Assembly (NCBI GenBank): GCA_028683855.1
Contig: JAQUHA010000002.1
Coordinates: 1 to 64,000, forward strand
DNA: 64,000 nucleotides
DNA from: Desulfuromonadaceae bacterium
Lineage (GTDB): Bacteria; Desulfobacterota; Desulfuromonadia; Geobacterales; Pseudopelobacteraceae
Direction: 5' to 3'
Part shown: positions 128 through 63,549 of the stretch, in pieces
Layout of the letters: each line of letters opens with the position of its first letter
How positions within the stretch are numbered: the first letter of the stretch is position 1
Program-made: the position numbers and the translations under genes
The notes under the pieces: generated by a model
Told to the model about the DNA's origin: nothing
Databases searched by the model: none
The model's input: only the letters and a program-made list of their open reading frames with translations

Positions 128-2272
128 ATGTCATCTAAACAACATCTTTTTATTAGCAAAATAATGGCGTTAATTATTGTTTTATCATTTGGCTTCGTCG
201 GTGCTCGAGAAGCCTATTCGAACTCTTGGAGTTCCGCATTCGATAGCATAGATCGAAAGAACGCTGATACGGCGAGCCAGTCGGAACAAATCAAGGATTT
301 ATCGTATTCTAAAATGCCGGATGGCAGTTTGTTTTTTCGGGGGGAGTACAACGGCAATCCGGTAAACATGGTTAGAAAAAAGATTAAGGGCAAGCGTTGC
401 TGGATGATCTATACAGGCCCTTTTAACAATCGGGTACGTTTGACCTTTGTTGATCGTAAAGGCTTACAAGAAATCTTTGCCATGGATCGAGGCACTCGTA
501 TTAATCTAAACTATGTTGGCAAGGAGCGGGTTGAATATCGCCTTTATGACTCCAACAGGCGTTTCCTAATAGGCTCTGTAATCTACCAGAAAAATGGCCG
601 TTTTATGCAAGGCTTTATGAAGACTGAAAAGTTCTCTGGTTACAAAAATCTTATAAATGTGAAAGATACTACTGACGCTGTAAAAAACATTAATCCGAAG
701 ACCTCTTTGATGTCACCCCTCAACTCAATGTGGGGTTTTGTAAATTCATATTTAGTCTCTACAGCTTTTGCAGCTGATGACAGCAGCCTTACTTTATTAG
801 ATAACCCAAAAGATTTTTTCGCCGGTTCTTTCAAAGAGATGGTAAATGGGGTTTTTGTTGGAGCTACTGCTTTTACTGTTGCACTTGCTACTGTCACACT
901 TGCTACTGTAGAGACTACTAAAGTGGTTGCCGCTGCTGAAGCGGCTTATATGGTGGTAGCTACACCTCCAGCAGCTGTTGCAGCTCTATCTGTGACTCCT
1001 ATAGGGGCTTCAATTATAGCCGGGATTGCAGTCGGAAAAGTTGCGTACAAAATATACCAAAAGTTTCAATATGCGCCAGAACACGAAGCAACGGAAGAAG
1101 AGATAGAGACATACAACTCATTTGAGGCTAAGTCCAGCTACGTTGATACATATTCAAGCCATCCCGCAACAACAGTTAGAGAAACCAAAAATAAAAACCC
1201 AATAATTTGTGATGCATTTCAAAAGCTGAAAAACGGTGTCTGTGTTCCTGACTGCACCAAAAAACAGGTGCTGGTTGACGGCGTATGTATTAATGAAACC
1301 AAAAATAAAAACCCAATAATTTGCGATGCATTTCAAAAGCTGAAAGACGGTGTCTGTGTTCCTGACTGCACCAAAAAACAGATGCTGGTTGACGGCGTAT
1401 GTATTAATTCCAAAAAAGTCGAGAAACACTTAAACATTGATGATGCTTTTTCATCATTGAAAGACGACAAACTAATATATGAATCCTCTACAGAAGGGCG
1501 GCCAGCTCAACCGCAGTTAGTGTTTCCATACATTAAATCAAACATTGATGATGCGTTTGCGGAGCTAGAAGCATCAAGCGGGTCATCTAAACACTCAAAC
1601 ATTGATGATGCTTTTTCATCATTGAAAGATGACAAGCTAATATATGAATCATCTACAGAAGGGCGGCCAGCTCAACCACAGTTAGTGTTTCCATCTTCTA
1701 CTAATATTGGCACTCAACCTCAAACGGCGCCTAAATCAAAAGTTGATAACAATCGTGAAGTTTGTAAAGTTGCAACCAGTTGCGGTAATCCAGGGAGCGT
1801 AATCGAAGTTACCAAAACAAATAAAAGTCAATTCCCAGAAGCTTGTATGAAAAGACCTTCTTACTCTAGAGCAGTTCGTAGTAATCAATCGTTTGATGAC
1901 TTATGTGATGATATGGTTGGTAAACTCCGTACTGCTACAAATGGAGCGGTTTATAATGCCAGTTCTTGTTACTGCAGCTATCCATATTGTAAATTATTTT
2001 ATGATAAGACACCAAAAGGGATCTGTTATGACAACTTATTAATAGGTGGTTGGTCATGTCAAAGTCGGGATGGCATTAAATATGTTCTCCGGTTTAATCC
2101 CGACTCAGATCTTATAACAGAATACACAGATGGTAGAAGTGTTAAAAGTTATTATAATGCTAGCAACGGTGTAATATCAGGCGAATATAATCTAAAATAT
2201 GAATTTATAAATAGCGATAAAATTAAATTTACAACTGAAACTCAATTTGAATACGAATGTACAAGACAGTAG
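128..2272 (+). CDS. Secreted repeat-containing hypothetical protein
   Basis: A 714-residue protein of no family I recognise. Residues 1-30 form a signal-peptide-like segment (MSSKQHLF, then a hydrophobic run ending near GAREAYS), so export is likely. A long Ala/Val/Thr-rich hydrophobic stretch around residues 235-305 could be one or two membrane segments. Residues about 352-427 hold two near-identical 38-residue Cys-containing units (ICDAFQKLK...GVCVPDC). A second unit beginning NIDDAFSSLKDD occurs twice after that, with a degenerate third copy between. The last 150 residues are Cys-rich and end in a lipocalin-like GGWSCQSRDG segment. No good ribosome site precedes the ATG. The next gene follows after 24 bases and may be co-transcribed. 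Function unknown. Confidence 0.75.
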   Translation: MSSKQHLFISKIMALIIVLSFGFVGAREAYSNSWSSAFDSIDRKNADTASQSEQIKDLSYSKMPDGSLFFRGEYNGNPVNMVRKKIKGKRCWMIYTGPFNNRVRLTFVDRKGLQEIFAMDRGTRINLNYVGKERVEYRLYDSNRRFLIGSVIYQKNGRFMQGFMKTEKFSGYKNLINVKDTTDAVKNINPKTSLMSPLNSMWGFVNSYLVSTAFAADDSSLTLLDNPKDFFAGSFKEMVNGVFVGATAFTVALATVTLATVETTKVVAAAEAAYMVVATPPAAVAALSVTPIGASIIAGIAVGKVAYKIYQKFQYAPEHEATEEEIETYNSFEAKSSYVDTYSSHPATTVRETKNKNPIICDAFQKLKNGVCVPDCTKKQVLVDGVCINETKNKNPIICDAFQKLKDGVCVPDCTKKQMLVDGVCINSKKVEKHLNIDDAFSSLKDDKLIYESSTEGRPAQPQLVFPYIKSNIDDAFAELEASSGSSKHSNIDDAFSSLKDDKLIYESSTEGRPAQPQLVFPSSTNIGTQPQTAPKSKVDNNREVCKVATSCGNPGSVIEVTKTNKSQFPEACMKRPSYSRAVRSNQSFDDLCDDMVGKLRTATNGAVYNASSCYCSYPYCKLFYDKTPKGICYDNLLIGGWSCQSRDGIKYVLRFNPDSDLITEYTDGRSVKSYYNASNGVISGEYNLKYEFINSDKIKFTTETQFEYECTRQ
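1181..1408 (+). repeat. Tandem duplication, two 114-bp units
   Basis: Bases 1181-1294 and 1295-1408 are nearly identical in-frame copies; I count three base differences. Each encodes a 38-residue unit with three Cys (CDAFQKLK...GVCVPDC...GVCIN). The near identity points to a recent duplication or gene conversion. Confidence 0.9.
1433..1693 (+). repeat. Direct 96-bp repeats encoding NIDDAFSSLKDD units
   Basis: Bases 1433-1528 and 1598-1693 encode the same 32 residues (NIDDAFSSLKDDKLIYESS onward to LVFP). A shorter degenerate copy, NIDDAFAELEASS, sits between them. The spacing is in frame, so the repeats are modular at the protein level. Confidence 0.9.
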
Positions 2273-2296
2273 TTAATTATTTATGGAGGTCATATT

Positions 2297-3118
2297 TTGA
2301 AATTAATAATAATGTTGCTGATAGTGATGCTAACTTACCTGCCTACACATTCCTTTGCTAATAGTTATGACGATCAAGGCGAAGCTTTAATGGGAAAAAT
2401 CATCCCGTTGATTAAGGAAAATAATGCTGCCGGTGCTTTGCCGTATATGGCAGAGCTGGAAAAACTTGGGCCCAGGCTCTCATCTCCCCTGCCGGAAAGT
2501 TTTTATTACTACTATATTGATTGCCTGGATAAAGCTGGGGAAAATTCTCAGGCACTTAACCGTTCCAAAATATTCCTTAAAAAATATGGCAAGAAGAGTA
2601 AGTATTCCTCTAAAGTCAATGAGATTTCAACTAGATTGAAGGAGGAGGAAAAAGCCGCCAAGCTTGAAGCTGAAAAAGATGCGGCAGAGGCAAAGCGAAA
2701 AGCAGAAGATGAAAAAAGAGCTGCTCGAGAGGTCGCAGCGACTGAACTCGAACGTTTGATCTACACAGATCCGCAGAGTGGTCTGCAGTGGGCACGCAAC
2801 GGAAATATTGCCGGCAAGGAAATGAACTGGAACGATGCTATGCGTTGGGCTGAAAACCTTAACTACGCAGGGTACAGCGACTGGAGATTACCGACTAAAG
2901 AGGAGCTTGAGACCTTCGCGAAGCGGGGCGGAAACCGCCCTTCGGAGTGGTTTAACGCTAACGGCTTTAGCGGCGTCCGGTCCGGTTACTATTGGTCCGG
3001 CAGTACCTACGCCAACGGTACAGATAGCGCCTGGTTCGTCAGCATGGTCAGCGGTTACGTGGGCAGCAACTATAAGTCCAGCAGCTACTGTGTTTGGCCC
3101 GTACGTTCGGGACAGTAG
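2297..3118 (+). CDS. DUF1566 (Lcl C-terminal) domain protein, secreted
   Basis: A 273-residue exported protein. The TTG start at 2297 is chosen because GGAGGT lies 6 bases upstream and the following residues form a signal peptide (KLIIMLLIVMLTYLPTHSFA). Residues about 25-110 are helical and TPR-like. Residues 110-150 are a highly charged Glu/Lys/Ala coiled coil. Residues 154-271 are a DUF1566 domain with its hallmarks: DPQSGLQWARNG, WNDAMRWAENL, GYSDWRLPTKEEL, YYWSGSTY and a final VWPVRSGQ. Related folds are C-type-lectin/FGE-like and occur in surface proteins. Specific ligand unknown. Confidence 0.8.
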   Translation: MKLIIMLLIVMLTYLPTHSFANSYDDQGEALMGKIIPLIKENNAAGALPYMAELEKLGPRLSSPLPESFYYYYIDCLDKAGENSQALNRSKIFLKKYGKKSKYSSKVNEISTRLKEEEKAAKLEAEKDAAEAKRKAEDEKRAAREVAATELERLIYTDPQSGLQWARNGNIAGKEMNWNDAMRWAENLNYAGYSDWRLPTKEELETFAKRGGNRPSEWFNANGFSGVRSGYYWSGSTYANGTDSAWFVSMVSGYVGSNYKSSSYCVWPVRSGQ

Positions 3119-3176
3119 ATACTTTGATTCTTTGACTCTTTGCTTCTTTGATTATAACACTCACTGCCAGCTATCC

Positions 3177-3208
3177 CTCACCCCGTCCCTCTCCAACAAG
3201 GTGAGAGG
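3177..3208. repeat. Short intergenic inverted repeat
   Basis: CTCACC at 3177-3182 pairs with GGTGAG at 3200-3205, in a CCCTCACCCCGTCCC context typical of dispersed intergenic palindromes. There is no T-tract, so it is a poor terminator. A CTTTGA-rich stretch at 3123-3152 precedes it. Confidence 0.4.
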
Positions 3209-3221
3209 TTAATAATTCAAT

Positions 3222-4751
3222 ATGCAAGGACATTCCACAGACGAAAATACAGGCTTAATAAACGGGCTCCAAACCTGGTACGACCAACAGTCCTCGAAGC
3301 ATCCAGAAACTGGATTTGTTCTCAAGGCATCACTTCTGGTATTCCTGATAATGACGGCAAAATCCTTCGTAGAGGCGAATGATTTTTTTCAAGTTATTCT
3401 GCTTATGTTTCTGCTCTTCATGCCGCTATACTTCGTTATCTTCTGTATGCACCGCTGGCGCTCAAAAAACGTCGGATTCTTTCGTAATCTTTACGAATTT
3501 ATCAGAGAAAACGTCACAATAGTAAGCGTTCCGACCGTTGAGCATCAGGAAGCCTTCAAAAACAGCGCTTGGGTTACATACTCCCTTATACTCGTAAACG
3601 AGATTATATTTTACTTCGTCCAACCTGCCTTCCCCAAAATATTTCATCATCTGGCTTTCATTCCTTGGTCTCACGAATGGTTGGATCTTACTTGTGCGCT
3701 TTTCTCCAGTATGTTCCTGCATATAGATGATATGCATCTCTGGGGGAATATGATGTTCCTCTGGGGTGTGGGGACAGTTGTAGAGCGGCGAATCGGCTGG
3801 CGGCTTTTTATTGGCGGGTACCTGGTCTCAGGTATGGTTGCCTCCCTTCTAGCGGTCAATATTCATTACTACCTTCTCGGTGAGGAGATGCATGGCATTG
3901 GAGCGTCAGGTGCTATATCCGGAGTGATGGGTATGTATATGATCCGCTGCTATTTCAAGCAGATGGTCTTTCCCATTCCGTTCCTCGGTGTTCTCCCAAT
4001 TAGCTGGAAAATGCGCATGAACTCTATGACTTTCATTGGTTTATTCTTTGCCTTGGATCTGAAAGAGGGGTACAGCCAGATATCAGGAGAAAATTTCAGT
4101 ATGATTGCCCATTGGGCTCATGTTGGGGGTATGTATGCAGGAATGATGATAGCAGCCACAAGAAGGTTTGAGAAGGATGCGGATTTAGAGTTCAACGAGG
4201 AAAGAGGTATGAGCGCCATAAGGAATGGCACTCTAAGCAGTGCGGGATTTGATAAACTCATAGGACTGGATGCTGCCGAAGTATCTCTGCGTAAAGTTCT
4301 GGCATCGCAACCTGATAATGTGTCAGCCATGCTTCAGCTTGCCAGAACCAGATCGCATCTTGTGGCAGACCGAGAAGCTAAGGAACTTTATGCAGGGGTT
4401 ATAGCTAAGCTGGTTGTTTCTGATACAGCTGAAGCGATGAATGTTTATTTGGAATACTATAAAAAATATATGGATATTGTTTCCCCGGCTGTCCAGTACC
4501 GTCTTGTCCCTCATTTTCTCAAAGCCGGACAATATGAAATAGCCAGTAGGTCTCTTGAGCTGATTATTGCGCATGACGATACTCCTCCTGATATTAAGGA
4601 GAAAGCAATGTATAATTGCGCCAGAGTTTTTGATGAAATGGATCTTCCAGAGGCGGCAAACTTAATGCGAATAAACTATCTCAATTTATTCCCTGACTCG
4701 ATATCCTCAGCCAAAGTCAGGTCTGCATTAAATCTAGAGACGAATGACTGA
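3222..4751 (+). CDS. Rhomboid-family intramembrane serine protease with TPR-like tail
   Basis: A 509-residue membrane protein. Residues 35-80 carry one or two transmembrane helices. The rhomboid core spans about 110-310: an HLWGNMMFLWG oxyanion-type segment, GASGAIS with the nucleophile Ser229, and HWAHVGG with His300 as the other half of the catalytic dyad. Both catalytic residues are present, so it is predicted active. Residues about 340-509 are helical and TPR-like, an addition not found in the shortest rhomboids and probably cytoplasmic. It would cleave transmembrane helices within the inner membrane; the substrate is unknown. The ATG at 3222 has only a distant GAGAGG upstream. Confidence 0.85.
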   Translation: MQGHSTDENTGLINGLQTWYDQQSSKHPETGFVLKASLLVFLIMTAKSFVEANDFFQVILLMFLLFMPLYFVIFCMHRWRSKNVGFFRNLYEFIRENVTIVSVPTVEHQEAFKNSAWVTYSLILVNEIIFYFVQPAFPKIFHHLAFIPWSHEWLDLTCALFSSMFLHIDDMHLWGNMMFLWGVGTVVERRIGWRLFIGGYLVSGMVASLLAVNIHYYLLGEEMHGIGASGAISGVMGMYMIRCYFKQMVFPIPFLGVLPISWKMRMNSMTFIGLFFALDLKEGYSQISGENFSMIAHWAHVGGMYAGMMIAATRRFEKDADLEFNEERGMSAIRNGTLSSAGFDKLIGLDAAEVSLRKVLASQPDNVSAMLQLARTRSHLVADREAKELYAGVIAKLVVSDTAEAMNVYLEYYKKYMDIVSPAVQYRLVPHFLKAGQYEIASRSLELIIAHDDTPPDIKEKAMYNCARVFDEMDLPEAANLMRINYLNLFPDSISSAKVRSALNLETND

Positions 4752-4938
4752 ATATGAGAGTAGATACTGAGTCGATTTGCCTATTCTGTCAGCTTTAAAT
4801 CTTATTCCCGAATCAGATTAGCCGCTTCAAGTTTTAATTCCTCTGTATAGCGCTCACTATTTCAAGCTTGCACCACTTTTTATTCATCAACCAATGGCTT
4901 AATCCATGATATGTGCTATGTTTTAAGTTAATCACCTA

Positions 4939-4966
4939 TTGACATATTCTTTTTCATATATATAGT
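4939..4966 (+). promoter_or_regulatory. Sigma-70-type promoter for the tolC-like efflux operon
   Basis: TTGACA at 4939-4944 and TATAGT at 4961-4966 are separated by 16 bases, in a 241-bp gap. The start codon of the efflux operon lies 27 bases downstream, with GGAGGA at 4984-4989. Confidence 0.6.
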
Positions 4967-4992
4967 AGAGTATATTCATTACTGGAGGAAAT

Positions 4993-6336
4993 ATGCACCG
5001 CCTGTTGATCTTATGTACCCTTATACTCCTTCCTGCTGCTTCTGCCGAAGCGTCCAGCCTTAAATTAACCGTAAAAGACGCTCTTAGGATGGCACTTGAT
5101 AACAACTCTAATGTTAAGGCTGCCCGTTATAACTCCGAAGCGACTGCAGAGGGTGCCGAGATCGCCACTTCCAGATACCTCCCTACTATATCTTTTGAGG
5201 AAAGTCTTATGGCTTCTAACTCTCCTACAAACGTATTCATTATGAAACTTGACGAGGGGAGATTCAATCCAGCAGATTTTGCCACACCGGACGTGGTTAA
5301 TCATCCTGCAACCAAGCATGATTTCAAAACCGCTCTCTCAATCCAGCAGCCGATTTTTGTCCCTTCGCTCGCCCCTTTAAAACAGCTTGCCATTAAAGAT
5401 GTGGAAAAATCGGCACTCCAGCTGGAAGCTACCCGTCAAAAAGTTGCATTTCAGGCTTTTCAGACCTATCTTGAACTCCAGAGAGCTGCGGCTCAACTTA
5501 AAGCTTCTGAAAAAGCTGTTGTGGATGCCAGAGAGAATATGCGCCTGGCAAGCGTCAGGACGTCATCCGGAGTCGGACTCAAATCAGATGAGTTGCGCTC
5601 CCGAACCCATCTCTCAATGGTCGAGCAGCAGCAGCTTTCAACCCGAAACGACCTGACTCTTGCCCAAATGAAGCTTGCCATACTGATCGGATTGAAAGAT
5701 GAGAGTGTAATTGAAGTTTCAGACTTGCCGGAAGCTGTACAGGTTCCCCCCATGACCGATCAAAGCATAAGCGAGGCGCTTCAGAACAGGGTCGAGATCA
5801 GGCAGTCACACATTGATATGGAGAAGTCTGACGAGTTTTCAAGGATGACCAAAAGAGCGTATCTGCCGACAATCGGCGCGTTTGCATCATATCAACTTAA
5901 TGGTGAAGAGATACCATTCAGCGCCGACACCAATTCATGGTCTGCCGGAGTCTCTCTCAAATGGGATATTTTTGACGGTTTCAGACGCGGCAGTGAACGA
6001 AAAAAGGCTCTCTCATCGCAGTCAGCAGCAAGGGAGGTGCTTGCTTCAGCCGGAAACGATGTAAAATATCAACTGAAAGAGAGCTACATCCGGCGCGATG
6101 AAGCTGGCAAACGCCTTGAGATGGCTAATCACTCGCTTAAAGACGCAGAAGAAACTGTCAGACTTCTTGGCAGACGCTATGAAAATTCCCTGGCCACAAT
6201 GGTCGAATTGCTGGATGCCCAGACTACACTTAATCAGGTCAGGGCGAATCTTGTCGATGCCGAGGCCGGTTACGCTCTGGCCGGCGGGCAGGTCTATTTT
6301 ATGTCAGGAACTTTTGTTAAGGAGATGCTGAAATGA
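4993..6336 (+). CDS. TolC-family outer-membrane efflux protein
   Basis: A 447-residue outer-membrane channel subunit. It has a signal peptide (residues 1-20, ending ASAEA). The body shows the two-fold repeat of long amphipathic helices typical of the family, with the usual LTVKDALRMALDNN opening and a closing segment LLDAQTTLNQVRANLVDAEAGYALA. Length matches TolC relatives. Start chosen at the ATG with GGAGGA 4 bases upstream. It overlaps the adaptor gene by 4 bases, so the operon tolC-like/adaptor/RND is translationally coupled. It would connect the periplasmic adaptor and inner-membrane pump to the outside. Confidence 0.92.
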   Translation: MHRLLILCTLILLPAASAEASSLKLTVKDALRMALDNNSNVKAARYNSEATAEGAEIATSRYLPTISFEESLMASNSPTNVFIMKLDEGRFNPADFATPDVVNHPATKHDFKTALSIQQPIFVPSLAPLKQLAIKDVEKSALQLEATRQKVAFQAFQTYLELQRAAAQLKASEKAVVDARENMRLASVRTSSGVGLKSDELRSRTHLSMVEQQQLSTRNDLTLAQMKLAILIGLKDESVIEVSDLPEAVQVPPMTDQSISEALQNRVEIRQSHIDMEKSDEFSRMTKRAYLPTIGAFASYQLNGEEIPFSADTNSWSAGVSLKWDIFDGFRRGSERKKALSSQSAAREVLASAGNDVKYQLKESYIRRDEAGKRLEMANHSLKDAEETVRLLGRRYENSLATMVELLDAQTTLNQVRANLVDAEAGYALAGGQVYFMSGTFVKEMLK

Positions 6337-7448
6337 GGAGATCTTTATTACTGCTGACACTTCTGTCATCAGCTCTGTTTGCTGCAGGTGGATGTTCAAA
6401 AAATCACGAAGGTGCAAAGACCGACAATCGACCTGTTCCGGTTCTTAAAGGGATGACTGTTGAAACGGTCAAGAACATGGCAACTCCTGAACTGCTTGAT
6501 ATCGTGGGAACTGTCCGTGCTCGTACAAGCGCCGTCGTATCGCCGCGCATTCCGGGCAGTATATCTTTCCTGACGGTTCGTGAAGGTGACAGAGTCAAAA
6601 AGGGTCAGCTACTCATGCAGCTCGATGCCCGCGAAAACCAGGCAAATGCTGCTGCTGCCTCTGCAGCAGTCGACGAGGCCCACCGCGCCATGGACGAAGC
6701 AATCTCCAGAAAAAAACTGGCCGATATTACCTTTGAGCGTTATCAGAATCTGCTGAACGAACAGGCGGTAAGCAGGCAGGAGTTTGACGTACGGCAGACA
6801 GAAAGAGATATGGCGACTCAGGCTGTTGCACGAGCAGAGTCAAGACTCAAGCAGAGTCAGGAGGGGGCGAAGGGGGCAGCAGCCCTTTCGGACTACACCA
6901 GAATTACCGCTCCGATTTCAGGCGTTATTGCCAGCAAGCAGGGGGACCTGGGAGCAACCGTTTTCCCGGGACAACCTTTGCTTACTATTGAAGACGAGGG
7001 GAGCTATCAGCTCGAACTGGCGGTGCCAGAGAATTTTGCAGGAAAGATTAAAGCCGGAACAGAGCTGCAGGTAAATATTGACTCGATCAATGCTGTCTTT
7101 ACAGGTCGCATCACGGAAACTGTCCCTACTGCAGACGCAGCAACCCGCACCTTTATTGCCAAGGTGCCACTTAACCGGATCGGTCTTAAATCAGGAATGT
7201 TCGGTCGTGCCTCACTGCCGCTCTCTACAACGGTTATGGGGGTAACTGTTCCTGTACTCAGTGTGCTTGAAAGAGGTGCTTTGACTTCGGTATGGACTCT
7301 GGATGCGGAGAACAATACTCACCTGAGAATTGTCAAGACAGGGAGAGTTGGCAACGGCCGGATTGAAATTCTCTCCGGACTTACCGATGGTGATCGTGTT
7401 GTGACTTCTGCCGTCGAGAAAGTCACCGAAGGGGCAAAGGTAGAGTAG
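6333..7448 (+). CDS. RND efflux periplasmic adaptor (membrane fusion protein), lipoprotein
   Basis: A 371-residue HlyD/AcrA-type adaptor. The N-terminus is a lipoprotein signal with lipobox AAGGC (Cys near residue 20), anchoring it at the inner membrane. A lipoyl-like half-motif (VSPRIPGSISFLTVREGDRVKKG), an alpha-helical hairpin (about 100-175), the second half (ITAPISGVIASKQGDLG), then beta-barrel and membrane-proximal domains follow in order. It lies between tolC-like and RND genes with a 4-base overlap and a 3-base gap, so the partners are clear. Substrate is not evident. Confidence 0.92.
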   Translation: MRRSLLLLTLLSSALFAAGGCSKNHEGAKTDNRPVPVLKGMTVETVKNMATPELLDIVGTVRARTSAVVSPRIPGSISFLTVREGDRVKKGQLLMQLDARENQANAAAASAAVDEAHRAMDEAISRKKLADITFERYQNLLNEQAVSRQEFDVRQTERDMATQAVARAESRLKQSQEGAKGAAALSDYTRITAPISGVIASKQGDLGATVFPGQPLLTIEDEGSYQLELAVPENFAGKIKAGTELQVNIDSINAVFTGRITETVPTADAATRTFIAKVPLNRIGLKSGMFGRASLPLSTTVMGVTVPVLSVLERGALTSVWTLDAENNTHLRIVKTGRVGNGRIEILSGLTDGDRVVTSAVEKVTEGAKVE

Positions 7449-38757: not shown

Positions 38758-38864
38758 TATTCCGCTGCCGAGGGTAGAGCCAGAGGATTACAATTTTATC
38801 AAAAAATAACAAAAAACGTTGTTTATCCCCATTTTTACTGACTTTGCTTAATTAATTTTCGAGC

Positions 38865-38880
38865 TGGCATAATCTATGCT
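38865..38880 (+). promoter_or_regulatory. Sigma-54 promoter of nifB
   Basis: TGGCATAATCTATGCT has GG and GC separated by exactly 10 bases. Predicted transcript start falls at the TCAGTAA (38890-38896), which begins 10 bases after GC. Confidence 0.75.
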
Positions 38881-38886
38881 CTACCC

Positions 38887-38944
38887 TTGTCAGTAAACGG
38901 CAACGACGCCTGTAGGTTTTATCCTGTGGGCGTTTTCTATTTTT
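38887..38944 (+). promoter_or_regulatory. nifB leader with terminator-like hairpin
   Basis: The early transcript can fold TTGTC/GGCAA (38887-38903) around AGTAAAC. It is followed by a hairpin at 38906-38933: ACGCCTGTAGG pairs along its full length, with three G-T wobbles, to CCTGTGGGCGT around TTTTAT. TTTTCTATTTTT then runs to 38944. This looks like an intrinsic terminator placed before nifB, so expression would require read-through or antitermination. Confidence 0.65.
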
Positions 38945-38958
38945 GAGAGGAGCTACTT

Positions 38959-39828
38959 ATGGCAACTGCTTGCGAGATGAAGAACAAAATCCAGGGGCAC
39001 CCCTGCTTCGGCGGCAATCATCATAAGAACGGCAGGATGCATCTGGCAGTGGCGCCAAAGTGCAATATCAAATGCGGATACTGTTCCAGAAAACATGACT
39101 GCGCCAATGAATCCCGTCCGGGCGTTACCAGCCGGATATTGACTCCGATGGAGGCCATAGAAAAAGTTCGTGAAGTGATGGCAAGTCCTGTAGTCGGGCC
39201 GATTATCAAGGTTATCGGCATCGCCGGCCCGGGTGATCCACTGGCAAACGAAGAGACCTTTGAGACTTTTAAGATGGTTAAAGAGGAATTTCCGAATCTG
39301 ATGCTCTGTCTGAGCACCAATGGTCTCCTCCTCCCCGAATCAATCGACCGTCTCTACGAAATGGGGCTGCACAGCCTGACGGTGACAATCAACGCGGTTG
39401 ATCCTGAGGTGGCTGCGAAGATATACGGACACGTTATCTATCACGGGAAGCATTATACCGGTGTTGAAGGGGCAAGAATCCTCATCAACAATCAGTTTGA
39501 GGGGCTCAAAAGGGCAGGTGAACTGGGTCTTACCATAAAGGTGAACAGTGTCTTGACACCCGGGATCAACGATAGCCAGATGCCGTTAATCGCAGCACGT
39601 GTGAAGGAGCTTGGCGCGTTTGTTATGAACATCATGCCGATTATTCCGCAGGCCGAGTTGGCACACATTGAGCCACCGACCGAGGAGTATCTCGCCGAAG
39701 TAAAAAAGGCGAACGAGGGGATTATCGGTCAGTTTGCTCACTGCAAGCAGTGTCGCGCAGATGCAATCGGTCTGATCGGTCAGGATCTTAATGTAACGAT
39801 AGCCAAGGCGGCATGTCCGACACCATGA
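38959..39828 (+). CDS. nifB: NifB, radical SAM FeMo-cofactor core synthase
   Basis: A 289-residue short-form NifB. The radical-SAM cluster motif is Cys35-x3-Cys39-x2-Cys42 (KCNIKCGYCSRKHDC). N-terminal HPCFGG and C-terminal CKQCRADAIG provide further Fe-S ligands. It lacks the NifX-like C-terminal domain of longer proteobacterial NifB. It makes the 8Fe-9S-C precursor (NifB-co) from two 4Fe-4S clusters and SAM. GAGAGGAG precedes the ATG, a sigma-54 promoter and leader hairpin precede it, and its end overlaps the GNAT gene by 16 bases. Confidence 0.96.
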   Translation: MATACEMKNKIQGHPCFGGNHHKNGRMHLAVAPKCNIKCGYCSRKHDCANESRPGVTSRILTPMEAIEKVREVMASPVVGPIIKVIGIAGPGDPLANEETFETFKMVKEEFPNLMLCLSTNGLLLPESIDRLYEMGLHSLTVTINAVDPEVAAKIYGHVIYHGKHYTGVEGARILINNQFEGLKRAGELGLTIKVNSVLTPGINDSQMPLIAARVKELGAFVMNIMPIIPQAELAHIEPPTEEYLAEVKKANEGIIGQFAHCKQCRADAIGLIGQDLNVTIAKAACPTP

Positions 39829-53173: not shown

Positions 53174-54322
<1,149 letters not shown>

Positions 54323-54334
54323 CGGGACAACTCT

Positions 54335-55021
54335 ATGTTTTTAGAACAGAGCGATATTGAGGCAATTCTTCTTACGGTCAAACTTGCCGGACTGGTTACC
54401 GTAATACTTCTTGTCGCGGGAACACCAATCGCCTGGTGGCTCTCCCGCTCCAGGTCGCGACTGAAGGGGGTAATCGGAGCAGTAGTTGCGCTGCCGCTGG
54501 TGCTCCCCCCCTCGGTGCTCGGCTTCTATCTGCTCCTCGCCATGGGACCCAATGGTCCGCTGGGGTATCTAACCGGCAAACTGGGGTTAGGCGCGCTGCC
54601 TTTTACCTTCTGGGGTCTGGTACTGGCATCTGTGTTCTATTCACTCCCTTTCATGGTGCAGCCGCTTCAGAACGCCTTCGAGGCGATAGGGGAGCGGCCG
54701 ATGGAAGTTGCCGCCACCCTCGGTGCCTCCACTCTCGACGCTTTCTTCACCGTGGCCCTCCCACTGGCCCGTCCGGGGTTTATTACCGCCTCGATTCTTA
54801 CTTTTGCTCATACCGTCGGGGAGTTCGGGGTAGTGCTGATGATCGGAGGAAATATTCCGGGGAGTACCAGAGTGGCTTCTGTTCAGATCTACGATCATGT
54901 AGAGGCGCTGGAATATGGTGAAGCTCACCGCATGGCTGCGGTAATGCTGATATTTTCGTTTCTGGTTCTGCTCTGGCTTTATGCCCGGCGCCCGGACGCC
55001 ATGAAAACCGGGCAGAGGTGA
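54335..55021 (+). CDS. modB: Molybdate ABC transporter permease
   Basis: A 228-residue permease with about five to six TM helices. The coupling-loop EAA motif is [29 protein letters not shown]. The ModB-type sequence [39 protein letters not shown] is clear. 12 bases after modA and 4 bases before modC. Confidence 0.95.
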
Positions 55022-55025
55022 TTAC

Positions 55026-56078
55026 ATGAAGCTCTCCATGAATGTAAACAAGAGTTTTGGCGCCTTCTCGTTATCGACTGATTTCACTGTCTCAGGCGAT
55101 TGCGTTGGAATATTCGGTGCATCGGGGAGCGGCAAGTCGACTCTGGTGAGCATGCTTGCAGGCTTTCTGAAGCCGGACAGTGGTTCAATTCATCTGGATG
55201 GTGAGTGCTTATACAGCAGTGAAAAGAGAATTAATGTAAAGCCGGAGCTACGGCGGATATCTATGGTGTTTCAGCAGCACAATCTTTTTCCCCATCTGAG
55301 CGTCATGGAGAACCTGCTGTACGGGTTCAAACGCTGCCGGAAGGAGCACCGCACCATTGATTTCGATACTTTGACTGATGTGCTGAAACTCCAGGGGCTT
55401 CTGGGGCGTGGTGTTGCAAATCTCTCAGGTGGTGAGAAGCAGCGCGTTGCTCTTGGGCGCGCTATTCTTGCGAACCCGCGTCTGCTGCTTATGGATGAAC
55501 CGCTCTCTGCGCTCGACGACTCTCTCCGTTTTCAGATCATCCCCTATCTGAAGAGTGTCAGCGAGCAGTTTGCCATCCCCTATATTTTCATCTCCCACTC
55601 ACTTATCGAGATGCGCATGATGACCGATACGGTACTTGCCTTCGAAAACGGGAGAATGATCGAACAGTCCTCAAGCGAGCAGCTGGCCAGAAACCGGATG
55701 GGGAAGAGTCCCGCCGGTTATATCAACCTGCTGCATCTTGGCGTTCCGGCGGAGAGCGCCGGACATTTTGTCTATCCGTGGGGCAGGGCCTCACTGCATA
55801 TTTCGGCGGGTTCTGACCGGGCAGAGCCGATGGCTGAACTCTCTTCAAAGGAGATCATCCTCTTCAAACAGCATCCGGAAGCGATCAGTGCAAGAAATCT
55901 GCTGAAATGTACTGTACGCTCACTATTCAGCTCGGGGAGGAAGATCGGTATTGAGCTCGATTGTGCAGGGAATCCTTTGGTAGCGGAGGTTGTTGAGGAA
56001 GCTGTCAAAGAGTTGGGTGTTTTTCCAGGTGTTACTGTTTATGCAGCAATGAAGGCATCTGCTTTTCGTATACTTTAG
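55026..56078 (+). CDS. modC: Molybdate ABC transporter ATPase
   Basis: A 350-residue ATPase. Walker A GASGSGKST, Q-loop FQQHNLFPHL, signature LSGGEKQRVALGRAI, Walker B LLLMDEPLSALD and switch His ISHSL. The C-terminal TOBE/mop-like domain (about 285-350, LKCTVRSLFSSGRKIGIELDCAGNPLVAEV) is expected for ModC and can bind molybdate for feedback inhibition. Confidence 0.94.
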   Translation: MKLSMNVNKSFGAFSLSTDFTVSGDCVGIFGASGSGKSTLVSMLAGFLKPDSGSIHLDGECLYSSEKRINVKPELRRISMVFQQHNLFPHLSVMENLLYGFKRCRKEHRTIDFDTLTDVLKLQGLLGRGVANLSGGEKQRVALGRAILANPRLLLMDEPLSALDDSLRFQIIPYLKSVSEQFAIPYIFISHSLIEMRMMTDTVLAFENGRMIEQSSSEQLARNRMGKSPAGYINLLHLGVPAESAGHFVYPWGRASLHISAGSDRAEPMAELSSKEIILFKQHPEAISARNLLKCTVRSLFSSGRKIGIELDCAGNPLVAEVVEEAVKELGVFPGVTVYAAMKASAFRIL

Positions 56079-57790: not shown

Positions 57791-57806
57791 TGGCACAACC
57801 GATGCA
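57791..57806 (+). promoter_or_regulatory. Sigma-54 promoter of nifH
   Basis: TGGCACAACCGATGCA: consensus TGGCAC -24, with GC 10 bases after GG. Predicted start lies at TCAGTAA (57816-57822), which begins exactly 10 bases after GC, as at nifB. Confidence 0.85.
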
Positions 57807-57812
57807 AAATAA

Positions 57813-57895
57813 AAATCAGTAACCAGATTTAAAACATTAATAGAGCAACGTTTGGCAAAGGCGCCATCATTCAAAAAGGAATGGGGCGCCTTTTT
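57813..57895 (+). promoter_or_regulatory. nifH leader with terminator-like hairpin
   Basis: A first small stem AAATC/GATTT (57813-57830) surrounds AGTAACCA. A second, strong hairpin spans 57857-57893: AAAGGCGCC pairs perfectly with GGCGCCTTT, and an inner CATTC/GAATG stem closes the hexaloop AAAAAG. T5 follows the GC-rich stem (57891-57895). This has the form of an intrinsic terminator between the promoter and nifH, which suggests antitermination control. In Geobacter the ANTAR protein GnfR acts in this way on nif transcripts. Confidence 0.7.
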
Positions 57896-57897
57896 AA

Positions 57898-58821
<924 letters not shown>

Positions 58822-61931: not shown

Positions 61932-62094
61932 AGTGGCAACTGAGGGATGAAGAGGGTGCTGAGAGATCAGATGTGGCTCTTTTGAATGTTGGTAGCGTAA
62001 TGGAAGTTCGTTGCTTTAATTAAGAGTGTTTGCGGTGGAATATATGAGGGGAATCTGTTATGAAAGTTCAATCTTATCAACAGTAAGGAATATT

Positions 62095-63549
62095 ATGTTT
62101 GAACAAGCATTCAAAAATATAGACGACGTTCTCTGGAAAGAGGCCGGTTGCGGCAGTGAGTTGGATTATGCAGAACAGACTTCGTGGTTGCTGTTCCTAA
62201 AGTACCTTGACGGACTGGAGCAGGACAAATCAATGGAGGCACAGCTTGAGGGCAAGGCGTACACTTTCATTCTTGATGAACCGTACCGCTGGGAGAGCTG
62301 GGCTGCACCCAAGACTTCAGACGGTAAGCTCGACCATAACAAGGCACTGACCGGCGATGATCTGCGGGATTTTGTAGATCGTAAGCTGTTCCCCTACCTG
62401 CACGGATTCAAGCAGAAGGCCAGTGGCCCCAACACCATTGAATACAAAATCGGTGAGATATTCGGCGAGATAAAGAACAAGATACACAGTGGCTACAACC
62501 TGCGGGAAATTATTGACCACATAGATGAACTACGTTTCCGCTCCCAAACCGAAAAGCACGAACTCTCCCACCTCTATGAAGCCAAGATCAAGAACATGGG
62601 TAATGCTGGCAGGAACGGTGGCGAGTATTACACCCCCCGTCCGTTGATCCGTGCCATTGTGCAGGTGGTGAAACCGCAGATCGGTAAACGTATCTATGAC
62701 GGTGCGGTTGGTTCGGCAGGCTTCTTGTGCGAGGCGTTCGACTACCTCAAGGCACAACCCAACCTGACCACCGACGACATGAAGATTTTGATGGAGCGTA
62801 CTTTCTACGGCAAGGAGAAGAAGTCACTGGCGTATGTCATCGCCATTATGAACATGATCCTTCACGGCATAGAGGCTCCCAACATCATCCACACCAACAC
62901 CCTTGCCGAAAACCTTGCAGACGTGCAGGAGAAAGACCGGTATGACATCATACTGGCGAATCCTCCTTTCGGCGGAAAGGAGCGGAAGGAGGTACAGCAG
63001 AATTTTCCTATTCGTACCGGCGAAACGGCTTTCCTCTTCCTCCAACACTTTATCAAGATGCTCCGTGCCGGTGGTCGTGCTGGCGTGGTTATCAAGAATA
63101 CCTTTCTCTCCAATACCGACAATGCCTCAGTAAGTTTGCGGAAACTGCTGCTTGAAAGTTGCAACCTGCATACCGTCCTTGATTGTCCTGGTGGTACGTT
63201 CCAAGGTGCAGGTGTCAAGACGGTGGTGCTGTTCTTTGACAAGGGATCACCTACCCGTAAGGTGTGGTACTACTCCCTTGATCCTGGCCGTAACATGGGC
63301 AAGACCAACCCACTGAATGATGCTGACATGTCCGAGTTCATCGAACTGCAAAAGACCTTTGCCGATTCCCCCAAAAGCTGGAGCGTTGATGTTACCGGCA
63401 TTGACACCACCACCTTTGATCTGTCGGTAAAGAATCCTGATGGTGGCGAGGTTGTTGTTCATCGGACTCCGTTGGATATTATGGATGAGATTGCTTTGTT
63501 GGATGCTGAGAGTGCGGAAGTTCTCATAAAAATCAGGAGCTTGTTATAA
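62095..63549 (+). CDS. hsdM: Type I restriction-modification DNA methyltransferase subunit
   Basis: About 484 residues from the ATG at 62095 (TAAGGAAT upstream). The N-terminal helical domain (FKNIDDVLWKEAGCGSELDYAEQTSWLLFLKYLDGLE) is typical of HsdM. The methylase core has GGEYYTPRPLIRAIV, the SAM motif region IYDGAVGSAGFLCEA, and the N6-adenine catalytic motif ILANPPFGGKE. It modifies host DNA with HsdS. hsdS and hsdR are expected beyond the window edge. Base and codon use look similar to neighbours. Confidence 0.94.
   Translation: MFEQAFKNIDDVLWKEAGCGSELDYAEQTSWLLFLKYLDGLEQDKSMEAQLEGKAYTFILDEPYRWESWAAPKTSDGKLDHNKALTGDDLRDFVDRKLFPYLHGFKQKASGPNTIEYKIGEIFGEIKNKIHSGYNLREIIDHIDELRFRSQTEKHELSHLYEAKIKNMGNAGRNGGEYYTPRPLIRAIVQVVKPQIGKRIYDGAVGSAGFLCEAFDYLKAQPNLTTDDMKILMERTFYGKEKKSLAYVIAIMNMILHGIEAPNIIHTNTLAENLADVQEKDRYDIILANPPFGGKERKEVQQNFPIRTGETAFLFLQHFIKMLRAGGRAGVVIKNTFLSNTDNASVSLRKLLLESCNLHTVLDCPGGTFQGAGVKTVVLFFDKGSPTRKVWYYSLDPGRNMGKTNPLNDADMSEFIELQKTFADSPKSWSVDVTGIDTTTFDLSVKNPDGGEVVVHRTPLDIMDEIALLDAESAEVLIKIRSLL

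Follow-up and report, generated by a model that had tools for sequence, protein, structure and literature searches.

A hexaloop hairpin fused to intrinsic terminators in the nif leaders of a Desulfuromonadaceae bacterium, a probable target of ANTAR antitermination

The nif leaders and their shared hairpin

The window, by which we mean the whole 64-kb stretch of DNA that was analysed, carries nifB and nifH, each preceded by a putative sigma-54 promoter and a short leader. The promoters both fit TGGC-N8-TGC. The features of the two leaders and their genes are as follows.

38865 to 38879, forward strand: predicted sigma-54 -24/-12 promoter of nifB (TGGCATAATCTATGC; pattern match, with a counterpart at the equivalent site in the nifB leaders of relatives)
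38890 to 38896, forward strand: the word TCAGTAA in the nifB leader, spanning the expected +1
38899 to 38910, forward strand: GGC-AACGAC-GCC, the ANTAR-type hexaloop hairpin at nifB, which has A1 and G4 in its loop (the putative antitermination hairpin, P2)
38905 to 38934, forward strand: predicted intrinsic terminator hairpin in the nifB leader, followed by a T-rich tail to 38944 (RNA folds)
38959 to 39828, forward strand: nifB, a 289-aa radical SAM protein without the C-terminal NifX-like domain (TIGR01290, PF04055)
57791 to 57805, forward strand: predicted sigma-54 promoter of nifHDK (TGGCACAACCGATGC; pattern match)
57816 to 57822, forward strand: the nifH copy of the word TCAGTAA, 31 nt 5' of the hexaloop hairpin
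57854 to 57865, forward strand: nifH ANTAR-type hexaloop hairpin GGC-AAAGGC-GCC (sequence pattern)
57857 to 57893, forward strand: predicted intrinsic terminator in the nifH leader, sharing bases with the hexaloop hairpin (RNA folds)
57952 to 58821, forward strand: nifH (TIGR01287, 472.6 bits)

The nifB product matches TIGR01290 over residues 6-281 with 336.3 bits, slightly below the cut-off of 343.65. Genes for a modABC-type molybdate transporter, named by inspection of their translations, lie between nifB and nifHDK (window 53522-56078). Additionally, a type I restriction-modification set (hsdM-, hsdS- and hsdR-like; window 62026-63549 and positions 1164-6367 of locus L188, G000:C62:63000-82000) stands between nifK and nifEN in the nif cluster and interrupts the usual operon neighbourhood. 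An Rfam scan of the window gave no match at gathering thresholds.

Apart from the word TCAGTAA, the two leaders had been described in the first-pass annotation as dissimilar, which is wrong. Both contain GGC-AANGNN-GCC, a 3-bp stem closing a six-base loop with A1 and G4, and in both GGCAANGNNGCC stands directly before the terminator and overlaps it. We compared these leaders with those of relatives (Geobacter, Geobacteraceae, Pelotalea, Geomonas and Desulfuromonadales MAGs). An ANTAR target has a stem of 3 bp or more that closes a six-nucleotide loop carrying A1 and G4, and such a hairpin is present in 47 of 47 nifB leaders, as well as in nifB and nifH here. Across these 47 leaders (47 genomes) the stem reads GGC in all and GCC in 46, and the loop consensus is A1 A2 Y3 G4 R5 N6, with positions 1, 2 and 4 invariant and 3, 5 and 6 variable, in a search that fixed position 1 and left 2 and 4 free (an unforced listing agrees). 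Three distant second nifB-like loci lacking a recognisable promoter-hairpin pair (L165, L166, L173) were left out of this set. As the P2 stem is almost invariant across leaders, a covariation test could lend it no support.

The 5' arm of the nifB terminator includes the GCC of the hexaloop hairpin and loop bases 4-6; thus, the two structures are mutually exclusive. Predicted folds reach -15.8 kcal/mol free versus -7.0 with the hexaloop enforced at nifB, and -24.7 versus -10.7 at nifH, while the hexaloop hairpin by itself folds at -2.8 kcal/mol. The terminator state is better by about 9-14 kcal/mol in all four leaders of this type in the genome, which implies that readthrough needs something holding the hexaloop. 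MFE folds place the 3' arm of the hairpin within the 5' arm of a terminator that ends in a T-run in 118 of 132 leaders, versus 6 of 132 with shuffled downstream sequence, and this overlap is a further feature of ANTAR targets. By gene, it was found in 48/53 nifB, 43/44 nifH, 10/11 nifEN, 4/4 nifX-like and 13/20 nifV leaders; because the nifH, nifEN and nifV sets were picked by motif, the constancy of their loops does not count as independent evidence, whereas their terminators do.

In several relatives, a palindromic repeat of about 80-100 nt (TTTCTGCAACG...GCAGAAA...CTTACTAAAAC) lies in either orientation between terminator and start codon, before nifH in L094, L107 and L110 and before nifB in L136 and L142. 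This repeat holds AACGRG-like loops and resembles a small mobile or REP-like element.

The receiver-ANTAR regulator and its candidate operons

We found one receiver-ANTAR protein in the genome, of 189 aa (locus L031, 1105-1674); a second, partial ANTAR match is a duplicate of the gene's 3' end on a different contig end. Its receiver domain (PF00072, residues 5-114) and C-terminal ANTAR domain (PF03861, residues 133-185) give it the GnfR-type architecture. Both EutV (6WSH/6WW6; E 1.4e-30) and the putative antiterminator 1S8N match it over its full length. Mapped by hand, the equivalents of EutV Tyr164, Met172, Arg142, Lys143 and Lys147 are kept, including the tyrosine that stacks on G4 and the methionine that serves as the plug (PMC8934654), while those of Arg168, Asn173 and Arg177 are changed to Q, D and S. 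Upstream of the ANTAR gene (L031 1004-1100) are TTCAGTAAACTGG and a sigma-54-like TGGCACGACTCCTGC; the latter would set +1 inside the ribosome-binding site.

Searching this genome for GGCAANGNNGCCN(8-38)TTTT, we found that only four of the 14 matches listed lie at leader distance from a sigma-54 promoter and also come with a strong terminator and a gene start. The genes behind them are nifB, nifH, nifEN (a 919-aa fusion) and nifX. Order-wide, promoter plus element occurs in 108 of 112 genomes, with totals far over a reversed-pattern control, and the ANTAR gene and nifH in 109/112 and 103/112. With all three near-universal, their co-occurrence is weak evidence, and gene linkage is better. Of 33 genomes of the genus, 22 have the ANTAR gene no more than 5 kb from nifB, and in 15 genomes it is no more than 3 kb from nifH; in the assembly studied here, the gene is at a contig end, on a different contig from nif. 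One genome (G012) has the ANTAR gene and lacks nifB, nifH and the element, showing that the protein can have other roles. Three (G094, G047, G054) have elements and no detected ANTAR gene, two of them (G047, G054) also without a nifH match.

The same leader type was also seen in relatives 5' of nifV, encoding homocitrate synthase (L150, L126, L130, L162, L168, L219, L225, L236, L238), and once 5' of an electron-transfer-flavoprotein-like gene of the fixA/fixB type (L151). These genes suggest that the regulon is wider in relatives.

From these comparisons of sequence, we consider it highly probable that nifB and nifH are each preceded by an attenuator that is transcribed from a sigma-54 promoter and controlled by ANTAR antitermination; one hexaloop may suffice for this. 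RNA polymerase would start near TCAG and, at nifB, transcribe GGC-AANGNN-GCC almost immediately. By default, the GCC together with the loop's 3' half would pair downstream into the intrinsic terminator, and transcription would stop before nifB or nifH. When active, the phosphorylated GnfR-type regulator is predicted to bind the hexaloop through G4 and the short stem; by holding the small hairpin, it would block the terminator and let polymerase enter the operon. Four operons, nifB, nifHDK, nifEN and nifX, have the element in common and may all be controlled in this way.

Single hexaloops and other readings of the leaders

The ANTAR target definition requires two hexaloops, including an upstream one, P1 (PMC3369931), and a 2022 structure paper has both contacted in turn for antitermination (PMC8934654). 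The same work on EutV argued that the protein binds one hexaloop at a time, and predicted single-hexaloop sites (PMC8934654). An upstream P1 with a short linker was not found in the leaders of this genome: nifH and nifX have no P1 of at least 4 bp, and nifEN has a weak 4-bp candidate, UAGA-AGAGAC-UCUA, 16 nt 5' of P2. At sigma-54 promoters, +1 lies about 12 nt after the -12 C. In most nifB leaders, about 40 of them in the genus, 15-19 nt separate the promoter GC from the hairpin, which would leave about 6-9 nt of RNA 5' of it and exclude a P1.

Outside the genus the picture differs. P1 is plain in Geomonas-type and other leaders, with stems of 5-7 bp, linkers of 6-12 nt and hexaloops that have G4 and mostly A1 (AGGTAC-AACGAT-GTATCT, AGATAC-AAAGAG-GTATCT and CGATGC-AAGGAC-GCATTG, for example). 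The stems vary (GGTAC/GTATC, GATAC/GTATC, GATGC/GCATT), and several nifH leaders outside the genus read GAATAC-GNNGNN-GTATTC. Dual-hexaloop forms with a P1 of at least 5 bp occur in 15 of 92 leaders versus 0.3 expected.

The clear P1 of nifB and nifH leaders in other families, together with the nifEN candidate, raises the alternative that ANTAR antitermination here uses the conventional dual motif, either with a degenerate P1 (of another loop size or protein-dependent) or with transcripts that start further upstream. We regard this as unlikely, although it survives better than the other alternatives. The short distance from the expected +1 to the nifB hairpin recurs in about 40 leaders, with the sigma-54 promoter conserved at that spacing, and 4-bp A1/G4 hexaloops in the nifH leaders of the genus (2/44 versus 0.9 shuffled) show no clear excess. 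With loops of 5-8 allowed, these nifH leaders show a weak excess of P1 candidates over shuffles. As far as the sequences indicate, most leaders of the genus have one hexaloop, and the missing P1 is their sole departure from the known class. There is perhaps an even chance that one lineage within the Geobacterales cut the ANTAR switch to one 5'-end hexaloop serving both recruitment and antitermination, possibly because RNA polymerase moves slowly there as it leaves the sigma-54 promoter.

A plain constitutive attenuator, in which the terminator lowers expression and GGCAANGNNGCC is retained merely as part of it, would agree with the GCC arm belonging to the terminator stem in most leaders. Yet GGC and loop bases A1 and A2 are invariant although they lie outside the nifB terminator, and P1 hairpins, which belong to no terminator, show this loop pattern too. 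We think this reading very improbable, and retain ANTAR antitermination.

The word TCAGTAA was the subject of the first-pass annotation, which suggested that nifB and nifH share it under selection, either for transcription initiation or for binding by an RNA regulator. Its spacing was correctly reported: ten bases separate GC from T at both genes, and a terminator follows the word at each. A search of the 3.47-Mb genome with TGGCN8TGCN10TCAGTAA returned two zero-mismatch matches, nifB and nifH, and shuffling of the four nif leaders puts the chance that this pair shares seven bases at one offset at p ~0.0006. This probability rises to 0.015 for a shared 7-mer in any of the six pairs among the four leaders, and to 0.019 for nifB and nifH at any offset. 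Thus, the sharing is a mild coincidence once the ways of finding such a match are counted.

Selection on the word finds little favour in the relatives. At +10 the exact word occurs in 1 of 53 nifB and 1 of 44 nifH leaders, each time in this genome, and in none of the 52 other nifB and 43 other nifH leaders; this genome's own nifEN and nifX leaders lack it. Conservation in related genomes, on which the annotation had staked the idea, is a test that TCAGTAA fails and the hexaloop-terminator hairpin passes. The looser CAGYA occurs in 22 of 53 nifB leaders and is common in a subset within the genus, which speaks for the word; however, it stands 7 nt 5' of the hairpin in 21 of the 22 while its promoter distance ranges from 10 to 12, so that it is tied to the hairpin and not to the promoter. 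At nifH, 31 nt lie between word and hairpin, and thus the two occurrences are not equivalent. Nor does the small stem ascribed to the word hold up. At nifB, TTGTC/GGCAA takes up the conserved hairpin's GGC together with bases near or 5' of +1, and is unpaired in most relatives; at nifH a weak stem of 4-5 bp is not the MFE structure in a shorter fold. What stands is the proposal that nifB and nifH have a leader class of their own, in which a sigma-54 promoter is followed by a short leader and a terminator and which an RNA regulator probably reads; the element recognised is not TCAGTAA, whose role as a selected signal we consider even less probable than constitutive attenuation.

A conserved CAGYA stem seen in some relatives (GCC-AGUACC-GGC) was considered as a P1 and rejected, as on inspection it does not hold in roughly half of the nifB leaders.

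A DNA operator for a repressor or activator, formed by the inverted half-sites TTTACTGAC (38834-38842) and GTCAGTAAA (38889-38897), is the least credible reading, as the perfect 9-bp repeat that flanks the nifB promoter in this genome is neither conserved in relatives (among 23 of their nifB promoters, one reaches 8 bp and the others at most 6 bp) nor present at nifH.

Relation to known ANTAR systems

Antitermination under the ANTAR regulator would place these leaders beside several described systems. Control of the Geobacter sulfurreducens nif genes by a two-component system (GnfK/GnfR) and antitermination was reportedly described by Ueki and Lovley in 2010 (NAR 38:7485). As in that organism, which is of the same order, the leaders combine sigma-54 nif promoters and termination signals with a receiver-ANTAR response regulator; the exact hexaloop element, the four-operon set and the lack of P1 at nifB are added here. 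PMC8164766 cites the 2010 work as an ANTAR study. Additionally, the G. sulfurreducens nifEN promoter is RpoN-dependent by primer extension (PMC2725144). Concerning earlier reports of nif antitermination, the relevant passages of Rodionov 2004 (PMC545781) and of the G. metallireducens genome paper (PMC2700814) deal with other genes.

In Pelobacter carbinolicus, a delta-proteobacterium, Ramesh et al. (2012, PMC3369931) predicted ANTAR RNAs at three nitrogenase units. There as here, nitrogenase units carry the target hairpin; however, those of P. carbinolicus were found with a dual-hairpin model, whereas most leaders here have one hexaloop. The EutV/eutP system of Enterococcus faecalis (PMC3369931, PMC8934654) shares the A1/G4 hexaloop, the 3-bp stem, the 3' arm within the terminator and the receiver-ANTAR protein, but eutP has P1 and P2 joined by a 5-12 nt linker and the nifB leader P2 only, right at the 5' end. 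The NasR/nasF and AmiR/amiE leaders (PMC3369931) also place nitrogen genes under ANTAR antitermination; they have an upstream P1-type hairpin, in contrast to the nifB leader. The regulatory scheme is thus already known from Geobacter GnfR and P. carbinolicus, and the single-hexaloop RNA target is apparently the new part.

One mechanism may account for the nif leaders across a large group of metal-reducing diazotrophs. These leaders would be natural minimal substrates for a question on which the 2012 model, needing two hexaloops, and the 2022 EutV structure, with one bound at a time, differ. As the same gene occurs with and without P1 in sister families, the role of P1 is directly testable. If true, the reduction to a single hexaloop would show that antitermination in nature can do without P1.
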